A DNA stretch of 64,000 bases. Origin: Lysobacterales bacterium. GTDB lineage: Bacteria > Pseudomonadota > Gammaproteobacteria > Xanthomonadales > Marinicellaceae. The stretch is taken from the NCBI GenBank assembly GCA_027067055.1, contig JAMOMK010000131.1:1-64000 (forward strand), read 5' to 3'. Position 1 is the stretch's first letter. Each line of letters opens with the position of its first letter. Positions 112 through 61,274 of the stretch are shown in pieces. A program made the position numbers and the translations under genes. Under the pieces are notes generated by a model. That model had not been told where the DNA came from, did no database searches, and saw nothing but the letters and a program-made list of their open reading frames with translations.

Positions 112-333
112 CAAGGCTGCACCCATTCATTTAATCTAAACTCACCGGCAAGTGTTGATTATTTGATAACTGACAGACCGACAGCTAATGGAAACCTTGA
201 TACATTATTAAGTAATAACCCAACATGGAGTTTGGCACGATTACACCAAATGTTGATTGTCTATTATCCTGATAGTGTTGATGAAACTGTCATATTGGGG
301 GTTTGTGTGAAACGCCTCCAAAAGTACCAGTAG
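112..333 (+). pseudogene. Open frame of unknown function running into the Tn3 left end
   Basis: Stop-free frame from 112 to a TAG at 331-333, inside the transposon terminal repeat. It has no obvious start codon. The middle reads like protein (for example TDRPTANGNLDTLLSNN). The last dozen codons are transposon DNA, so the gene was probably interrupted at base 296/297. I do not recognise the domain. The sequence beyond the right end of the transposon (5716 on) does not continue this frame, so the two flanks were not originally adjacent. Confidence 0.3.
297..333 (+). repeat. Tn3 terminal inverted repeat, left
   Basis: Starts with five G and ends at the G of CCAGTAG. It pairs with 5679-5715 on the other strand with two mismatches over 37 bases. 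These are the transposase-binding ends. Confidence 0.9.
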
Positions 334-342
334 TGAGTCACA

Positions 343-882
343 TTACTTCTTAGCTTTGTCTTTACTCTCATTACTTTGTGGCCAAATAAAACCAATAGGT
401 TTTTTATTTGATTGAGCCTCTACCATTTTATTCAATGTTTCAAAAACAATACCAAATTTTTCATCGTATTCATATCTCAAATGATCTATTGAAAGTTTCA
501 AGTCATCTACTTGTGTAATCATTTTTCTGAGTTTAATAAAAGAGCGTATAATAGCTATATTCACCTTAATAGCACGTTCACTTTTCAAAACACCAGACAG
601 CATTGCTATGCCCTGTTCAGTGAATGCATTCGGGGCTGTTCTCCTGCCTCCCCATCTTGATGTCACAGATTGTGATTTCAAGAGTTTCATTTCTTCTTTT
701 GAAAGTTGAAACATAAAATCGCTTGGGAAACGTTCCATGTTACGTTTTACTGCTTGATTTACTTGTCTTGTTTCAACACCATAAAGAGCTGCTATATCTG
801 AATCAAGCATAGCCTTAACCCCTCGAACAACAAAGATTGTTGGGAGAATATTTTCTAAGGTAATTTCATTATTCAATGTCAT
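343..882 (-). CDS. ORF6N-domain (KilA-N-like) DNA-binding protein
   Basis: 179 aa. Residues about 10-95 match the ORF6N domain of phage and plasmid antirepressor-like proteins: FVVRGVKAMLDSDIAALYGV, then VNQAVKRNMERFP, DFMFQLS and a TEQGIAML segment. The C-terminal 60 residues are charged and likely helical. In phages this domain is linked to DNA binding in regulatory proteins; the target here is unknown. It is the outermost cargo gene, ending 10 bp inside the left terminal repeat, and follows the PP-loop gene after a 45-bp gap in the same direction. Small ORF6N genes are common in mobile elements, so this one was probably acquired with the transposon. Confidence 0.85.
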   Translation of the reverse strand: MTLNNEITLENILPTIFVVRGVKAMLDSDIAALYGVETRQVNQAVKRNMERFPSDFMFQLSKEEMKLLKSQSVTSRWGGRRTAPNAFTEQGIAMLSGVLKSERAIKVNIAIIRSFIKLRKMITQVDDLKLSIDHLRYEYDEKFGIVFETLNKMVEAQSNKKPIGFIWPQSNESKDKAKK

Positions 883-927: not shown

Positions 928-1689
928 TCAAGCCACATTAAGTTTTATTGATTCAATTTCACACATTAGCCCACATGAAAAATTCGGTTCATTTAATATG
1001 TTGCCAGCATTTGGATCAAGTTCGTCCAAGTATACATTAACTTTTCCATTACTTGTATCTTTCCTAATTATTGAAATTCCTATTTCTCTTTCAACTTTAG
1101 CCATTCTTTGAAAAACTGTTGGAAACTTAACACGTATCAAGTTCCAGTAACCCATGCCACCTTTTGGGCAACCGATACAATTATTATTTAAAAAGCCTAG
1201 CTTGTACATGGTTGGTATTTCAATACCTGCTTTTTTCAACATTCCCAAACAATCATCTTTAGTTAACCATTTTTCAATTAAAATAGTTCTAATTACTCTT
1301 TCTGGGTTTTGCTCTATAAAACGTTTAACCCTGTGTTTTTCTTCAATTGTATAACCGAATATTTCTACATCTCCGAATTTTACATACTTTCTTGCAACAA
1401 TCTTTTTAAGTTCCGTGGTACACCTTGCGCCACGTGGTCCAACCAAGTATTTTGTTTTTTTAAAAACGTCCCATGTATCTTCATATTTTTCAGATTTAAC
1501 AATTTTTATTTTTTTACCGAACCATTTTTGACAATCTATCAAGAACCTTAAATTATCAGGGTGTTCTGATCCTGTGTCTTGATATATTACTTCAATATCT
1601 GGGTTCTCTTGAATCGCTAGTTTTGTTGCAACTGCGCTGGCAGCACCGCATGAAAACCATGCTATTGTTTTATTTTTAGTTGTTTTCAT
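928..1689 (-). CDS. PAPS-reductase-like PP-loop protein (transposon cargo)
   Basis: 253 aa, adenine nucleotide alpha-hydrolase fold of the phosphoadenosine-phosphosulfate reductase superfamily. The N-terminal IAWFSCGAASAVATK is a variant PP-loop (SxGxxS), followed by YQDTGSEHPD. Paired cysteines (RCTTELKK, NNNCIGCPKGG and a C-terminal CGLMC) could bind an Fe-S cluster, as in DndC/TtcA-type sulfur transferases. Similar short proteins are frequent in phages. Real PAPS reductases end with a different Cys motif and sit with sulfate-assimilation genes, which are absent here. A role in nucleic-acid sulfuration or another ATP-dependent modification is possible but not shown. The family is fairly sure, the function unknown. 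Confidence 0.8.
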   Translation of the reverse strand: MKTTKNKTIAWFSCGAASAVATKLAIQENPDIEVIYQDTGSEHPDNLRFLIDCQKWFGKKIKIVKSEKYEDTWDVFKKTKYLVGPRGARCTTELKKIVARKYVKFGDVEIFGYTIEEKHRVKRFIEQNPERVIRTILIEKWLTKDDCLGMLKKAGIEIPTMYKLGFLNNNCIGCPKGGMGYWNLIRVKFPTVFQRMAKVEREIGISIIRKDTSNGKVNVYLDELDPNAGNILNEPNFSCGLMCEIESIKLNVA

Positions 1690-1755: not shown

Positions 1756-1944
1756 TCAAGATATTTTCCTTATTCTTTTTATAGCTAGTTCAACAATATA
1801 GGCTTGACTCACATTGTTAAGCTGGGCTAATTTTTTTACTTTTTCACGAGTTTCTTTTGAAACTTTTACAGCTAAATGTTTTTTTGGTTCTTTGCCTTCA
1901 GGTTTTCTTCCTGCCCCTTCTCGTTTACCGCCATGCTTATTCAT
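1756..1944 (-). CDS. Small basic ribbon-helix-helix-like protein
   Basis: 62 aa, strongly basic. It starts with a KREGAGRKP segment, then HLAVKVSKETREKVKKLA and a helical VSQAYIVELAIKRI, the strand-helix-helix pattern of Arc/MetJ-type regulators and antitoxins. Its ATG shares one base with the tnpA TAA (1944), so translation is probably coupled to tnpA. No toxin lies next to it. It may regulate the transposon genes or be an orphan antitoxin; similar lone proteins occur downstream of genes in other elements. Confidence 0.6.
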   Translation of the reverse strand: MNKHGGKREGAGRKPEGKEPKKHLAVKVSKETREKVKKLAQLNNVSQAYIVELAIKRIRKIS

Positions 1945-4900
1945 TATAATGCCTTTATATTATTTATCATTTCATCTAAGTCAGGAACACTTAGATCACT
2001 GTTGAATTCATATCTACCGAATAAATTTATGTGCCTCCATGCAACAGGTGAAAGCCTTTTAACCAAAGCAATAAGCTCTTGATTGTTTTCATTCTCGAAT
2101 CTAATTAAGAGTTTACTTAGCATCGATGCGTTATAATAAATTACTGCATTGGCAATGAGGCGACTACAATCACTTTCAATAGCAATTTCATATTCAGTTG
2201 TTCCTTTAAATTTGCCACCATTTGGGTGGGTGACAGCTCGCACTAATTGATGGTATGCCTCACCTCGGTTTAATGATCTATGAACATTTTGTCTAAAAGT
2301 AATATCGTCAATATAATTGAGCACAAATAAACTCATGTATATATTGTCAAACTCCTAAAGAGCTTTTTTAGTTCTATTTTTTCTGGCATACGAACTTAAT
2401 TTTCTGACAATATTACTCTGGGTGGTTGTTTTCAAGGCCATTGATTTGAATATACGTTGAATGTTTTCGCTTTCACTTAGTATTAAATCTGTTTCAGCTT
2501 GCTTTGATGGTTTGATTAGGTATTCATCAGGATAACCATTAACAGAGTTGAACCCTACCAACTTAGTGGCCTTTTGGTTGATCTGTGTATATCTAGGCGC
2601 CCACTTACGACCAAAAATTTCAAGCAAGACGAAATTTACTTGATTTGTTCCGGCCATATCTACAGAAATAACATCAGGGTTAATTTCAGAAGTATTATTG
2701 AATATAATATCAAAGGCATAATGGCTTTCATGTTCATTGGCACCAATTAGTTTTGCATTAACAGGCACATGGTTAACCACCATAGAATAATTAACTAACC
2801 CTTTATTTAAGCCAAAGTATTTTTTTGAATGTCTTGCTTTAAATGTAGATCTGGAAGCTTCAAATTTCTGACCATCTGCGCTAGCATGTAATGTTCCAAC
2901 ATCAAAATTGTAATATTTGAAAATTGGAAGGCTTGCAATTTTATTAACGATAAGGTCATTAGCCTTTCTGGTGTTTTCTAGTCTAATATGATTTTTGGCT
3001 GTTGTTCTTAACAAGTGTATCTTTGTATCAGAGATATCAGGCATTGTTGTCAACCCAATTCTTTCACCATAAGAAATAATACAAGCCATTATATTACCCC
3101 AGTCTGGCTTATTCTTAGTGTACTTGGGTTGAATGTGTTTAAAGGCTTCAAGAAAGTCACATTCTTGATTGACATATTTCAATATGTTAATAATTCCAAC
3201 TTGGGGCAGTTGCTCATAGAATGGATTGTTAATTGTATCTTCTTGTTTTTTATATGGCAGTCTCCAAGTTACTTCTTGGTTTTTATTAGAGTATTTTAGG
3301 TGGTTGTTTTTCCCCTTTAGAATGTTTTCATTAACTTCTTTGTAACGCTGTTCTAAAATTACTTTTAAATCTTCAAGGCGTTTTTCAATAGGTGTATTCA
3401 AGTTCTTAAAACCTAATGATTCTATTAATTCCTTTTTGTCCTCTAAATCCTTTTGACTAACCAAATCTTCATCAAAACTCTTGTATCGAGTACTTTTACT
3501 ATAATAAATATCGCCAGCATCTAAGCCTTTGCGCAACTGTTGGTAAACATACATTTCATAATGCGAAGGCTTGCAAATGATTGATGTTAGTTTTTTTGGA
3601 ATTATGCTCTTTAATTGTATTAACAATTCTTCTGGATAGTTGCTCCTGCCTGATTCATAAAACTGTTTCAGTTTATCTATAATCTCAATCATTAAATCAT
3701 CAGCTATTGTACTTTTGAAATCAATGGCCATAAATAATGGTCTTATATTCAAAGCTGTTTTTCTTGAGGTCGTATGAATATGCTCCCAAACATAATAATT
3801 TAGCTTTCTTTTCTCCCCTGATAAATAATTAACTACTTGCTGAATTTTATTCTTTTTGATGATTTTAAATGCTTGAGTCTTAATAGAACCAAAAGGTAAA
3901 GAATCATCGATAGATTCATCAATAAAGAAGTTAACTAATTTCCCTGTCTTATCTAGTTGTTTTCTGTTCTCAAGGTGATATTCAGTAAATTGCTTTTCTC
4001 CTATTTTTTTAGATTCCTGATTTGCCATTGTCACTTGATAAATGAAGCTGATAATCAAGTTATCACTCATTTGTTCAAAACAATGATAAACAAAACAAAT
4101 TAAATAAAGATGAGCCTGATCTCTGTTCATATTTTGCAATCGGTGTACTGGATAATATTCAGCCAATGAAGAATAGTATTTTATATTTTCATGTGAAACA
4201 TTTAGCTGTGGTAAGAATATTTTTGAGAACTCATATAGTTTTTGTGTAGCAGAATGTTTTTCTATTTCTTTACGAATTTGCTTTAACCCAAAATCTTTCG
4301 CTCTTTTCTTCAATGCTGTGAGCTGATAAAATGAACCTTCTATTGTTAGTAGTTTGTCCAACTTGTTTTTATGTGTACCAGAAACATTTGAATTAATATA
4401 TTTACAGATTCTTTTTTGTTCCTGGATAATAGACTTGCTTATTATTTTTTGAAATGTACTGTAACCAGGTACAGTGATCCTTTCATCATCAAGAATTCTG
4501 AAAAGCTCAGTAAATATAAAACGAGGCTTTGCATGGGTTTTGCAAATCTGGTCAGTTTTAATTGATAAGTATTCATGTTCTTCTATGCCAAATAATCTAA
4601 ATCCTTGAGATTTTAATATTATTTTCTGTTGAGACAACCGTGTATTCTTTGTAGGCAATGTAATGGTTTCACTTATACCATTAAAATATCGCTTAACTAG
4701 ATAATCATAATCATTCTGAATATCTTCCCATGCGAATACATAAAACTGGTGACTAACTTTAAAATATGCCAACTGCATTAAGTACAAAAGCTTAGAGTTT
4801 GTATTTCTTAAATTCTCGAAAATTAAGGTTTCATTTGGATCAAGTGAAAAAAATGACTCTCTTTCTTCATTATTAAATCTTGGTAGATTAAACAGATCCT

Positions 4901-4949
4901 TAATTTCATCCTTGTTTAAAATAGACAGTCTTTTACTTGATTTAGGCAT
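1944..4949 (-). pseudogene. tnpA: Tn3-family transposase with in-frame amber stop
   Basis: About 1001 codons in one frame, the usual length for Tn3 TnpA, broken by TAG at 2355-2357 (codon 865). Both halves are otherwise intact. Catalytic DDE residues can be placed at D692 (HASADGQKFE), D764 (ISVDMAGTN) and E897 (LNRGEAYHQ), so the stop separates the third acidic residue from the first two. The first 864 codons alone should be inactive. The tail could only be made separately from ATG 2334-2336. A normal protein needs suppression or a Trp/Lys/Gln/Glu-like codon at 865, one base away from TAG. The absence of other damage points to a recent event or a sequencing error. Confidence 0.9.
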
Positions 4950-5099: not shown

Positions 5100-5654
5100 A
5101 TGCAAATTGGTTACGCAAGAATATCGACTAAGGATCAAAATTTATTATTGCAGCATGAAGCTTTAAATAAAGCTAAATGTGAAAAAATCTATGATGATAA
5201 AATCAGTGGCATTAAAACATCGCGCGATGGATTAAATTTGGCTCTTGAGGTATTAAGAAAGGGTGACACCTTAATTGTTTGGAAATTAGATCGATTAGGC
5301 AGGAGTGTTAAAGATTTGGTTACAATGGTTGGTGATTTAGAAAAACGTGGTGTACATTTCAAAAGTTTAACTGATAATATTGACACCTCAACATCAGCAG
5401 GTAGATTTTTCTTTCATGTCATGGCCAGTCTTGCACAAATGGAACGCGAGTTGCTGATTGAACGTACCAAGGCAGGTTTGGATGTTGCTAGAAAGCGTGG
5501 ACGAATTGGAGGGCGTAAAAGAAAAATGACTGACTCTAAATTAAAATCAGCAAAGAAATTATTGTCCGATGGTGTTCCATCCAAGGACGTGGCTCGTGAT
5601 CTAGGAATATCGGTACCAACTTTGTATCGATGGATTCCAGCATCCGAACGATGA
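5100..5654 (+). CDS. tnpR: Serine resolvase/invertase (TnpR)
   Basis: 184 aa from ATG 5100, the typical TnpR length. An upstream TTG at 4983 would add 39 non-homologous residues across the res region and is rejected. The catalytic domain begins MQIGYARISTKDQN with the active Ser at residue 9 or nearby. KLDRLGRSVKDLV and MASLAQMERELLIERTKAGL are the usual small-serine-recombinase segments, and the C-terminus has a helix-turn-helix (SKDVARDLGISVPTLYRWI). It resolves transposition cointegrates at res. The gene is intact, in contrast to tnpA. Confidence 0.92.
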   Translation: MQIGYARISTKDQNLLLQHEALNKAKCEKIYDDKISGIKTSRDGLNLALEVLRKGDTLIVWKLDRLGRSVKDLVTMVGDLEKRGVHFKSLTDNIDTSTSAGRFFFHVMASLAQMERELLIERTKAGLDVARKRGRIGGRKRKMTDSKLKSAKKLLSDGVPSKDVARDLGISVPTLYRWIPASER

Positions 5655-5678: not shown

Positions 5679-5715
5679 CTACTGGTACTTTTGGAGGCGT
5701 TTCACACTAAACCCC
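5679..5715 (-). repeat. Tn3 terminal inverted repeat, right
   Basis: Reverse complement starts GGGGTTTAGTGTGAAACGCC and matches the left end at 35 of 37 positions. It abuts the truncated toxin gene at 5716. Confidence 0.9.
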
Positions 5716-5757
5716 ATCTAGCTCAAATTGAGCTTCTTTGACAAGAGAAACTTTCAT
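5716..5757 (-). pseudogene. ParE/RelE-like toxin, first 14 codons only (cut by Tn3)
   Basis: ATG 5755-5757 overlaps the antitoxin TGA in an ATGA arrangement, typical of antitoxin-toxin pairs. The frame reads MKVSLVKEAQFELD, similar to the first strand and helix of ParE/RelE toxins, then hits the transposon end at 5715 and terminates two codons later. The rest of the toxin is not found at the other transposon flank. The match is short, so the family call rests mainly on the partner gene and the overlap. Confidence 0.6.
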
Positions 5758-5966
5758 TTATAACGAGCTAAGGCCTGCTCTAATGGAACAGCTTCAAGCT
5801 TGCCAGATTTATAAGCTTGTAAGCGTGATTCAGCCTCTTTCCCCCACAGTTTATCTAACTCATCATTGGGCTTGTCTAACAATGACAAGATGTTATCAAC
5901 CAACTTGGCTTGCTCAATAGGCTTGAGGTTGCCAACTTCTTGTAAGATTTTTTCTGCTGTTGTCAT
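5754..5966 (-). CDS. Addiction-module antitoxin (PF09720-type), now orphan
   Basis: 70 aa, pattern of the 'putative addiction module component' family: MTTAEKILQEVGNLKPIEQA, a central LVDNILSLLDKP and a C-terminal WGKEAESRLQAYKSGKLEAV. In these loci the antitoxin comes first and overlaps the start of a ParE/RelE mRNA interferase or gyrase toxin gene. Here that toxin is truncated by the Tn3 element. The antitoxin is intact and would have no local partner. Its promoter should lie in 5967-6010. Confidence 0.85.
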   Translation of the reverse strand: MTTAEKILQEVGNLKPIEQAKLVDNILSLLDKPNDELDKLWGKEAESRLQAYKSGKLEAVPLEQALARYK

Positions 5967-45702: not shown

Positions 45703-46575
45703 ATGAAAAAATATCGCGTCATATCCACTCAAAAACAAACAGCGTTGGTTCTTAACACCCAAAGTAATGAGGAACAAGCCAGCTTCTTTGCACGCAAAGA
45801 GAAACCAATTTGTGGAGATTATGTGGAGATCCAACACAACAAAAATGAACAGCTAATAAGCAACATCTTGCCACGAAAAAACATATTTGCCCGTGCTAAT
45901 CATAAAGGCAAAAAACAAAATATTGCGGCTAATGTTGATAACCAAATTATCGTTGTCGCTGTCGAACCAGAGCCAACTCGTGACTTAATAAATCGTTACA
46001 TCATTGGTGCTCACCATTGTGGAACGCAACCCATTATTGTGTTTAATAAAAACGACATTGATGGCACTTTTTTTGACAAAACTATTAAACTGTACAAGAA
46101 ACTTGGCATTAAAACCATCTCCACTAACACCAAAACACAAACCAACTTTGATGAGCTTTTAGAGCTAATGGTCGATAAAACCTCTATTTTTGTTGGTATG
46201 AGTGGTGTTGGCAAGTCTTCTATCAGTGAGTTGGTGTTGGATAAATATATTAAAACAGGTGAAATTTCCAAAAAAACAGGTAAAGGATCACACGTTACAT
46301 CAGTCACACAACTTTATAAAATACCAAACTCAACTGGATTTTTGATTGACTCTCCCGGTGTTTGGGAATACGGCTTATGGAAAATGGATGCTGTTGATAT
46401 TGCTGCTGGGTTTAAAGAGTTTCATGATTTTATTGGGCTGTGTAAGTTTAGTAACTGCACACATACACACGAGCCAAAATGTGGTGTTAAACAAGCAGTA
46501 GAAGATAAGAAAATTACAAATTTACGCTACAATTCTTACTTAAGGATAATGGATTCAATGAAATATTGGGATTAG
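45703..46575 (+). CDS. rsgA: Ribosome small subunit GTPase RsgA
   Basis: 290 aa with the circularly permuted GTPase: an N-terminal OB-fold, then VFNKNDID (G4), FVGMSGVGKSS (G1), a KGSHVT-type switch and IDSPGVWEYGL (G3). The C-terminal zinc domain reads CKFSNCTHTHEPKCGVKQAV. It checks late 30S maturation. It ends in TAG, which shows TAG works as a stop here. Confidence 0.95.
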   Translation: MKKYRVISTQKQTALVLNTQSNEEQASFFARKEKPICGDYVEIQHNKNEQLISNILPRKNIFARANHKGKKQNIAANVDNQIIVVAVEPEPTRDLINRYIIGAHHCGTQPIIVFNKNDIDGTFFDKTIKLYKKLGIKTISTNTKTQTNFDELLELMVDKTSIFVGMSGVGKSSISELVLDKYIKTGEISKKTGKGSHVTSVTQLYKIPNSTGFLIDSPGVWEYGLWKMDAVDIAAGFKEFHDFIGLCKFSNCTHTHEPKCGVKQAVEDKKITNLRYNSYLRIMDSMKYWD

Positions 46576-60572: not shown

Positions 60573-61274
60573 TCATAGTATATTCGAAATTAAAAAGACC
60601 AAACTAAACCGATGAAAAATCTTTCGACTCATGAATACAAAGGCTAAAGGAGAAAACAGCAGTAAATTTATATTCCAAACAGCAATCGAATGTTCTGAGA
60701 AAAACCATAGAAATAATAAAGCTATGCCAATTAGGCTTTGTCCACTAAGCCATAAATAGATAGTAAACTTGGTTAAGAAAGGAATAAACAAGCCTATTAA
60801 TATGAGACTGACAAGTGAGATTACGGCATAATGGGTTTTTACAAAGCTATACTCTACAAGTTGTTTATCAGCTTTATTGTGTTGTACCTGTTTTCCATTC
60901 CAGTTTGTTTGTGTATAAATTTGTTGCTTTGCAAAATTCCACGGTAGGAGCTTTTCATAGTCTTCAACAGTTTCCACTAGAGGCAGTTTTTTGAAGATAT
61001 AACTCAAGTATTCCTGTGGATTAATGTCATGAGCTTTGGCTGTTTCAATAATCGAATACAGATTTGCACTGGCGTGTGTACCCTTTGGAGTATTGGCGAA
61101 CAACCAGTTTTTGCGACCGATGACAAAGGGGCGTATGGCATTTTCAGCGGCATTATTATCAATGGGATAGTTGCCATCATCGATATATTTAATTAACTTG
61201 TGCCATTGGTTGTTCAAATACTTAAGAGCTTTACCCATAAGCGCCGCTTGGTACGGTTTTATGCAGTATTTCAT
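60573..61274 (-). CDS. Chimeric frame: IS66 TnpC C-terminus joined to a DUF4105-like membrane tail
   Basis: 233 codons. Residues about 12-115 are the end of IS66 TnpC (LMGKALKYLNNQWHKLIKYI, DDGNYPIDNNAAENAIRPF, GRKNWLFANTPKGTHASANL, EKLLPWN). From about residue 140 the frame is unrelated: three membrane segments ending WFFSEHSIAVWNINLLLFSP, resembling the C-terminus of DUF4105 proteins (FLWFFTDH..N.NLLW). The join suggests a deletion between an inserted IS66 copy and a host DUF4105 gene. The N-terminus (to residue about 12) is out of frame with the preceding tnpC piece, so the product may not be made. Confidence 0.65.
   Translation of the reverse strand: MKYCIKPYQAALMGKALKYLNNQWHKLIKYIDDGNYPIDNNAAENAIRPFVIGRKNWLFANTPKGTHASANLYSIIETAKAHDINPQEYLSYIFKKLPLVETVEDYEKLLPWNFAKQQIYTQTNWNGKQVQHNKADKQLVEYSFVKTHYAVISLVSLILIGLFIPFLTKFTIYLWLSGQSLIGIALLFLWFFSEHSIAVWNINLLLFSPLAFVFMSRKIFHRFSLVFLISNIL

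Follow-up and report, generated by a model that had tools for sequence, protein, structure and literature searches.

The window analysed here, 64,000 nucleotides of a Lysobacterales bacterium contig (JAMOMK010000131.1), carries a Tn3-family transposon whose transposase gene, tnpA, is interrupted by a single in-frame stop codon. The tnpA frame lies on the minus strand (4949-1944) and comprises 1001 codons that are open except for a TAG at codon 865 (2355-2357, minus strand), where the plus strand reads CTA. The 5' part (2355-4949, minus strand) consists of 864 codons plus the stop, matches PF01526 (2.8e-71) and DUF4158 (4.4e-25) and contains D692 and D764; the 3' part (1944-2354, minus strand) is open to the natural stop and contains E897, encoded at 2259-2261 (minus strand). 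The corresponding same-frame ORFs encode 864 amino acids (4949-2355) and, from the ATG at 2336, 130 amino acids (2336-1944; PF01526, 3.5e-33). When the TAG was read through as X, the product scored 674.5 bits with the Tn3-family TnpA model NF033527 (cut-off 500), and D692, D764 and E897 were invariant in a 9-sequence alignment. The first-pass annotation had described a continuous frame of about 1001 codons with an undamaged tail, split by the TAG between the second and third catalytic residues, and each of these points was borne out: D692 and D764 lie 5' of codon 865, E897 lies 3' of it, and the frame holds no other lesion. As the TAG precedes E897, no single chain contains the complete DDE triad, and the gene is therefore classed as an interrupted Tn3-family copy and not as a working one. 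A search of the genome retrieved this tnpA copy alone, with one TAG inside it, and the protein search found no second copy that could supply transposase or repress.

A serine resolvase gene, tnpR, is encoded divergently at 5100-5654 (plus strand; Pfam Resolvase, 4.2e-44), providing the site-specific resolvase expected of the Tn3 family. The element is bounded by terminal inverted repeats, on the tnpA side at 296-333 (plus strand) and on the tnpR side at 5679-5716 (minus strand). These repeats are 38 nt long and 95% complementary, their outer end reads TGGGG in the alignment, and an inner segment of 29 bases is identical between the two arms, in agreement with Tn3-family ends; no other site in the genome matched the inner 29 bases with up to 3 mismatches. 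The two flanks differ: no 5-bp target duplication is present and no exact 5-bp match was found within +/-4, a situation also seen, by eye, in the related locus L119. The differing flanks would be consistent with a rearrangement or deletion next to the element, or with sequence having been misjoined at the repeats. The tnpA-side flank is a gene fragment (126-296, plus strand) with a 96% match to C32:4735-4905, where a longer copy lies within a 991-aa ORF that, judging by eye, we take to be subtilase-like. Further out, the first 115-130 bases of the window are repeated elsewhere in the genome at ten sites (97-100% identity), eight of which coincide with contig ends or lie close to them, and the assembly was probably broken here by the end of an insertion sequence (1-125). 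Immediately beyond the right inverted repeat, 5754-5966 encodes a putative addiction-module component (Unstab_antitox, 2.3e-13), and a fragment of an IS66-family transposase lies at 60573-61274 (1.1e-33, below the family cut-off). Comparison of 6.5 kb of this DNA with plasmids yielded matches in 137 records; among the ten matches listed, the resolvase alone was matched.

Three ORFs occupy the region between tnpA and its inverted repeat. An ORF of 62 aa, ribbon-helix-helix-like, is found at 1756-1944 (minus strand), its ATG overlapping the tnpA stop; it matches an Arc-like repressor PHROG (6.5e-5) and no Pfam family. It is followed by a 253-aa passenger with a PAPS-reductase domain (928-1689, minus strand; PF01507, 1.8e-8; phrog_424, 1.9e-51; PADLOC SspD, 1.2e-12) and by a 179-aa passenger with an ORF6N domain (343-882, minus strand; PF10543, 4.7e-33; PADLOC PDC-S05, 2.3e-54).

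We then asked what occupies codon 865 in related transposases. The relatives search covered 200 genomes and the class search 369. An initial scan of genome contigs with a single protein query gave no match; the later scan of genome contigs kept the best 80 of 416 relatives, which is not a random sample, and the scan of viral contigs kept 8. Column 865 was covered by 88 loci, represented by 93 alignment rows as some loci add a row for a second Tn3 copy, and held Trp in 82 of these 93 rows and a stop in none. In the multiple alignment of 91 relatives, which includes five plasmid homologues and from which two of 93 were omitted as too short, the residue was Trp in 86, Ile in 3, Ala in 1 and Phe in 1, again with no stop. 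Of an earlier set of 55 rows, mostly more distant (five of them being the plasmid homologues also present among the 91), 10 have Trp, 44 a different residue and 1 a gap, and likewise none has a stop. All four of the nearest relatives covering the column, L119 to L122 (60-68% identical, from the best 80 of 416), have Trp. On these alignments residue 865 is conserved within the subgroup and not across the family, and, as far as can be seen among the relatives examined, the stop appears private to this copy. A programmed stop common to the family was rejected, as none of the relatives examined has one at this column. We found no sister of this element with an amino acid encoded at 865; among relatives spanning that column, the closest is 68% identical. 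That the true codon is a sense codon, misread by sequencing or assembly, is very unlikely: the genome is a draft in 145 contigs and the stop is one substitution away from a codon for the residue of the relatives, but the remainder of the 1001-codon frame is clean.

Interrupted tnpA genes were also present elsewhere. Among the best 80 of the 416 genome relatives, internal stops were found in L133 (TAA at codon 364 of the aligned stretch), in L186 (TAA at 226 of the aligned stretch) and, ambiguously, in L121 (TGA at 6 of the aligned stretch), and the alignments of L135 and L167 are split as by a frameshift. Five other genomes (G008, G227, G376, G392 and G516) have in-frame TAGs in tnpA remnants that are short or damaged; only the G392 remnant spans codon 865, and it was rejected as a sharer of the same stop, its own stop being at query position 794 and its residue at 865 being Ile. 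A longer copy in G327 has two TGA codons. One remnant of a close relative, L106 (G376:C23), is in pieces (72.8% identity over 125 aa and 61% over 75 aa) that miss codon 865, and retains the inverted-repeat core at 2 mismatches.

The amino-acid distances over codons 866-1001 were 0.233 between the window and L120, 0.269 between the window and L119 and 0.256 between L119 and L120; for the upstream catalytic part they were 0.239 (window-L120) and 0.199 (L119-L120). The tail pN was 0.174 for window-L120 versus 0.139 for L119-L120, but an excess was also seen in the two segments before the stop (0.262 versus 0.212 and 0.153 versus 0.101), and there is thus no tail-specific acceleration. In pairs that include the window, tail pN was 0.17-0.20 with pS saturated in nearly all pairs, which indicates that the tail has long been under purifying selection; no relaxed selection was seen in the tail, the saturation of synonymous distance limiting this comparison to a coarse dating. 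In the tail, 25 columns are at least 95% conserved and the window differs in none of them; within codons 110-864, 10 of 98 such columns were changed, compared with 6 in 94-96 for each of L119, L120, L121 and L122. As the part after the stop is not diverging faster than the part before it, either the stop arose recently or the tail remains in use, and the divergence data alone would fit a very recent mutation and a still-used tail alike and do not separate them. The absence of further lesions provides a bound on age. If substitutions fall at random along the 3003 bases of the frame, 50 of them leave a 0.05 chance that no second stop has appeared; 20 leave a 0.04 chance when a frameshift share of 10% is assumed. 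Under these assumptions the single lesion limits neutral time to roughly 0.7-1.7% divergence.

The first-pass annotation had raised, beside a recent mutation, the possibility that amber suppression or an internal start makes a split product, and had proposed a search for amber-suppressor tRNAs. The Rfam model located 41 tRNA places, and in none of them is the anticodon CUA (one pass scored 150 of the 285 candidates from the first look; the draft genome is 98.25% complete). Release factor 1 is intact, prfA scoring 538.2 bits against a cut-off of 423.25 with no internal stops. As the same annotation had pointed out, rsgA (45703-46575) ends in TAG, a codon that is the stop of 2 of the 47 window ORFs counted. 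Genome-wide recoding of TAG was rejected on the intact prfA, the rsgA stop and the failure to find a CUA tRNA; low-level readthrough by near-cognate tRNAs is possible. Locus L078 (G000:C80) is a tRNA-SeC gene, and the genome may therefore decode TGA as selenocysteine.

An internal ATG follows the stop at codon 872 (2334-2336, minus strand), preceded at a distance of 15 nt by a Shine-Dalgarno-like AGGAG that overlaps the TAG. Ten window genes carry a comparable motif, spaced 6-11 nt from the start; since 25 of the 35 window starts examined have none, it gives weak guidance. L119, L120, L121 and L122 likewise have Met at codon 872, and the ATG therefore did not arise with the stop or for reinitiation. 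A screen of literature titles alone returned none describing the control of a Tn3 transposase through an in-frame stop.

The structural setting of codon 865 was examined by comparison with Tn4430 TnpA (7qd8), which aligned over query residues 53-983 (E 1.2e-39). By hand-counting on this alignment, D692, D764 and E897 correspond to D679, D751 and E881, the catalytic triad of Tn4430 TnpA according to PMC9579193. The segment after the stop aligns with the Tn4430 residues after 849, including E881 and the switch helix 897-908 (PMC9579193). An AlphaFold2 model of TnpA (26 sequences, mean pLDDT 82.1, pTM 0.64) places codon 865 inside a predicted helix, 859-881, adjoining the helix 883-910 that holds E897.

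These observations bear on a functional stop, in which readthrough or reinitiation at ATG 2336 would yield a little full-length or two-piece TnpA and keep transposition rare. Both halves of tnpA are undamaged and an ATG stands shortly after the stop with AGGAG overlapping it; however, no suppressor tRNA is among the 41 tRNA places found and prfA is intact, the spacing of 15 nt departs from that of the window genes, most of whose starts have no such motif, Met 872 predates the stop, no relative examined has a stop at the column, and the break would fall inside the predicted helix 859-881, with codons 865-871 missing from both pieces. We regard such a functional stop as highly improbable. Its more specific form, in which two pieces, one N-terminal and binding the ends, the other C-terminal and carrying the Glu, must reassemble and transposition is thereby self-limiting, is extremely improbable. 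Were the stop functional, it would represent a novel means of restraining Tn3 transposition. Of the two interpretations initially offered, the suppression or split-product idea is thus unlikely, with neither a CUA tRNA, nor a damaged prfA, nor a usual spacing, nor a shared stop to support it and with the break inside a predicted helix, and that of a recent mutation is supported by the sense codon of the relatives, which for most of the subgroup specifies Trp, and by a tail that is undamaged and diverges no faster than the head.

Shortened transposases act as inhibitors in other elements. The 864-residue product might likewise persist as an inhibitor or immunity factor, occupying the inverted repeats without catalysis; it retains the regions matching the DNA-binding and dimerization domains and lacks the end of the catalytic region onward. 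Against this reading, column 865 is a stop in no relative examined and no second copy to repress was found in this genome, and we consider there to be very little chance that it is correct.

Very probably, then, this locus is a single-copy, formerly mobile Tn3-family transposon that recently gained a nonsense mutation in tnpA. Translation would end at codon 865, giving a truncated protein from which the C-terminal tail is missing along with the switch helix and the catalytic Glu. Such a TnpA should be incapable of DNA cleavage and joining, and would leave the element stranded unless a compatible transposase came in trans. As only one lesion is present, further decay does not attest the loss of function. 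As it stands, the locus clearly illustrates a transposon shortly after its inactivation, and its value lies chiefly in showing how such elements decay.

Compared with known systems, the window TnpA is homologous to Tn4430 TnpA (7qd4, 7qd5, 7qd6 and 7qd8; PMC9579193), with which its DDE triad aligns, but is distant from it in sequence, and Tn4430 has Gly849 at the column of the stop (hand-counted on the alignment). Other Tn3-family copies with a nonsense or frameshift mutation resemble it in carrying a single lesion in a recognisable tnpA (one internal stop each in L133 and L186), but the window lesion is located elsewhere, just before the catalytic Glu. The nearest elements, L119, L121 and L122 from uncultured Gammaproteobacteria and L120 from a Marinimicrobia bin, have TnpAs 60-68% identical and a common inverted-repeat core with 1-3 mismatches. 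In contrast to the window element, all four encode Trp at codon 865, and in each of them the tnpA stop and the inverted repeat are just 2-42 bp apart, as against 1.6 kb of passengers (343-1944) in the window element. L119 (3183-3862) encodes a pair of HepT-like (HEPN) and nucleotidyltransferase genes between tnpR and tnpA, and L121 (3184-3845) looks alike, its HEPN-like gene being putative; the window element is without this pair. PMC7157771 lists TnSod9 with the same HEPN/nucleotidyltransferase layout, and describes passengers downstream of tnpA, with regard to Tn5046, as an unusual structure. Tn5046 thus resembles the window element in bearing passenger genes 3' of tnpA; its passengers, according to that source, are mer genes, whereas those of the window element are the ribbon-helix-helix-like, PAPS-reductase-domain and ORF6N genes.
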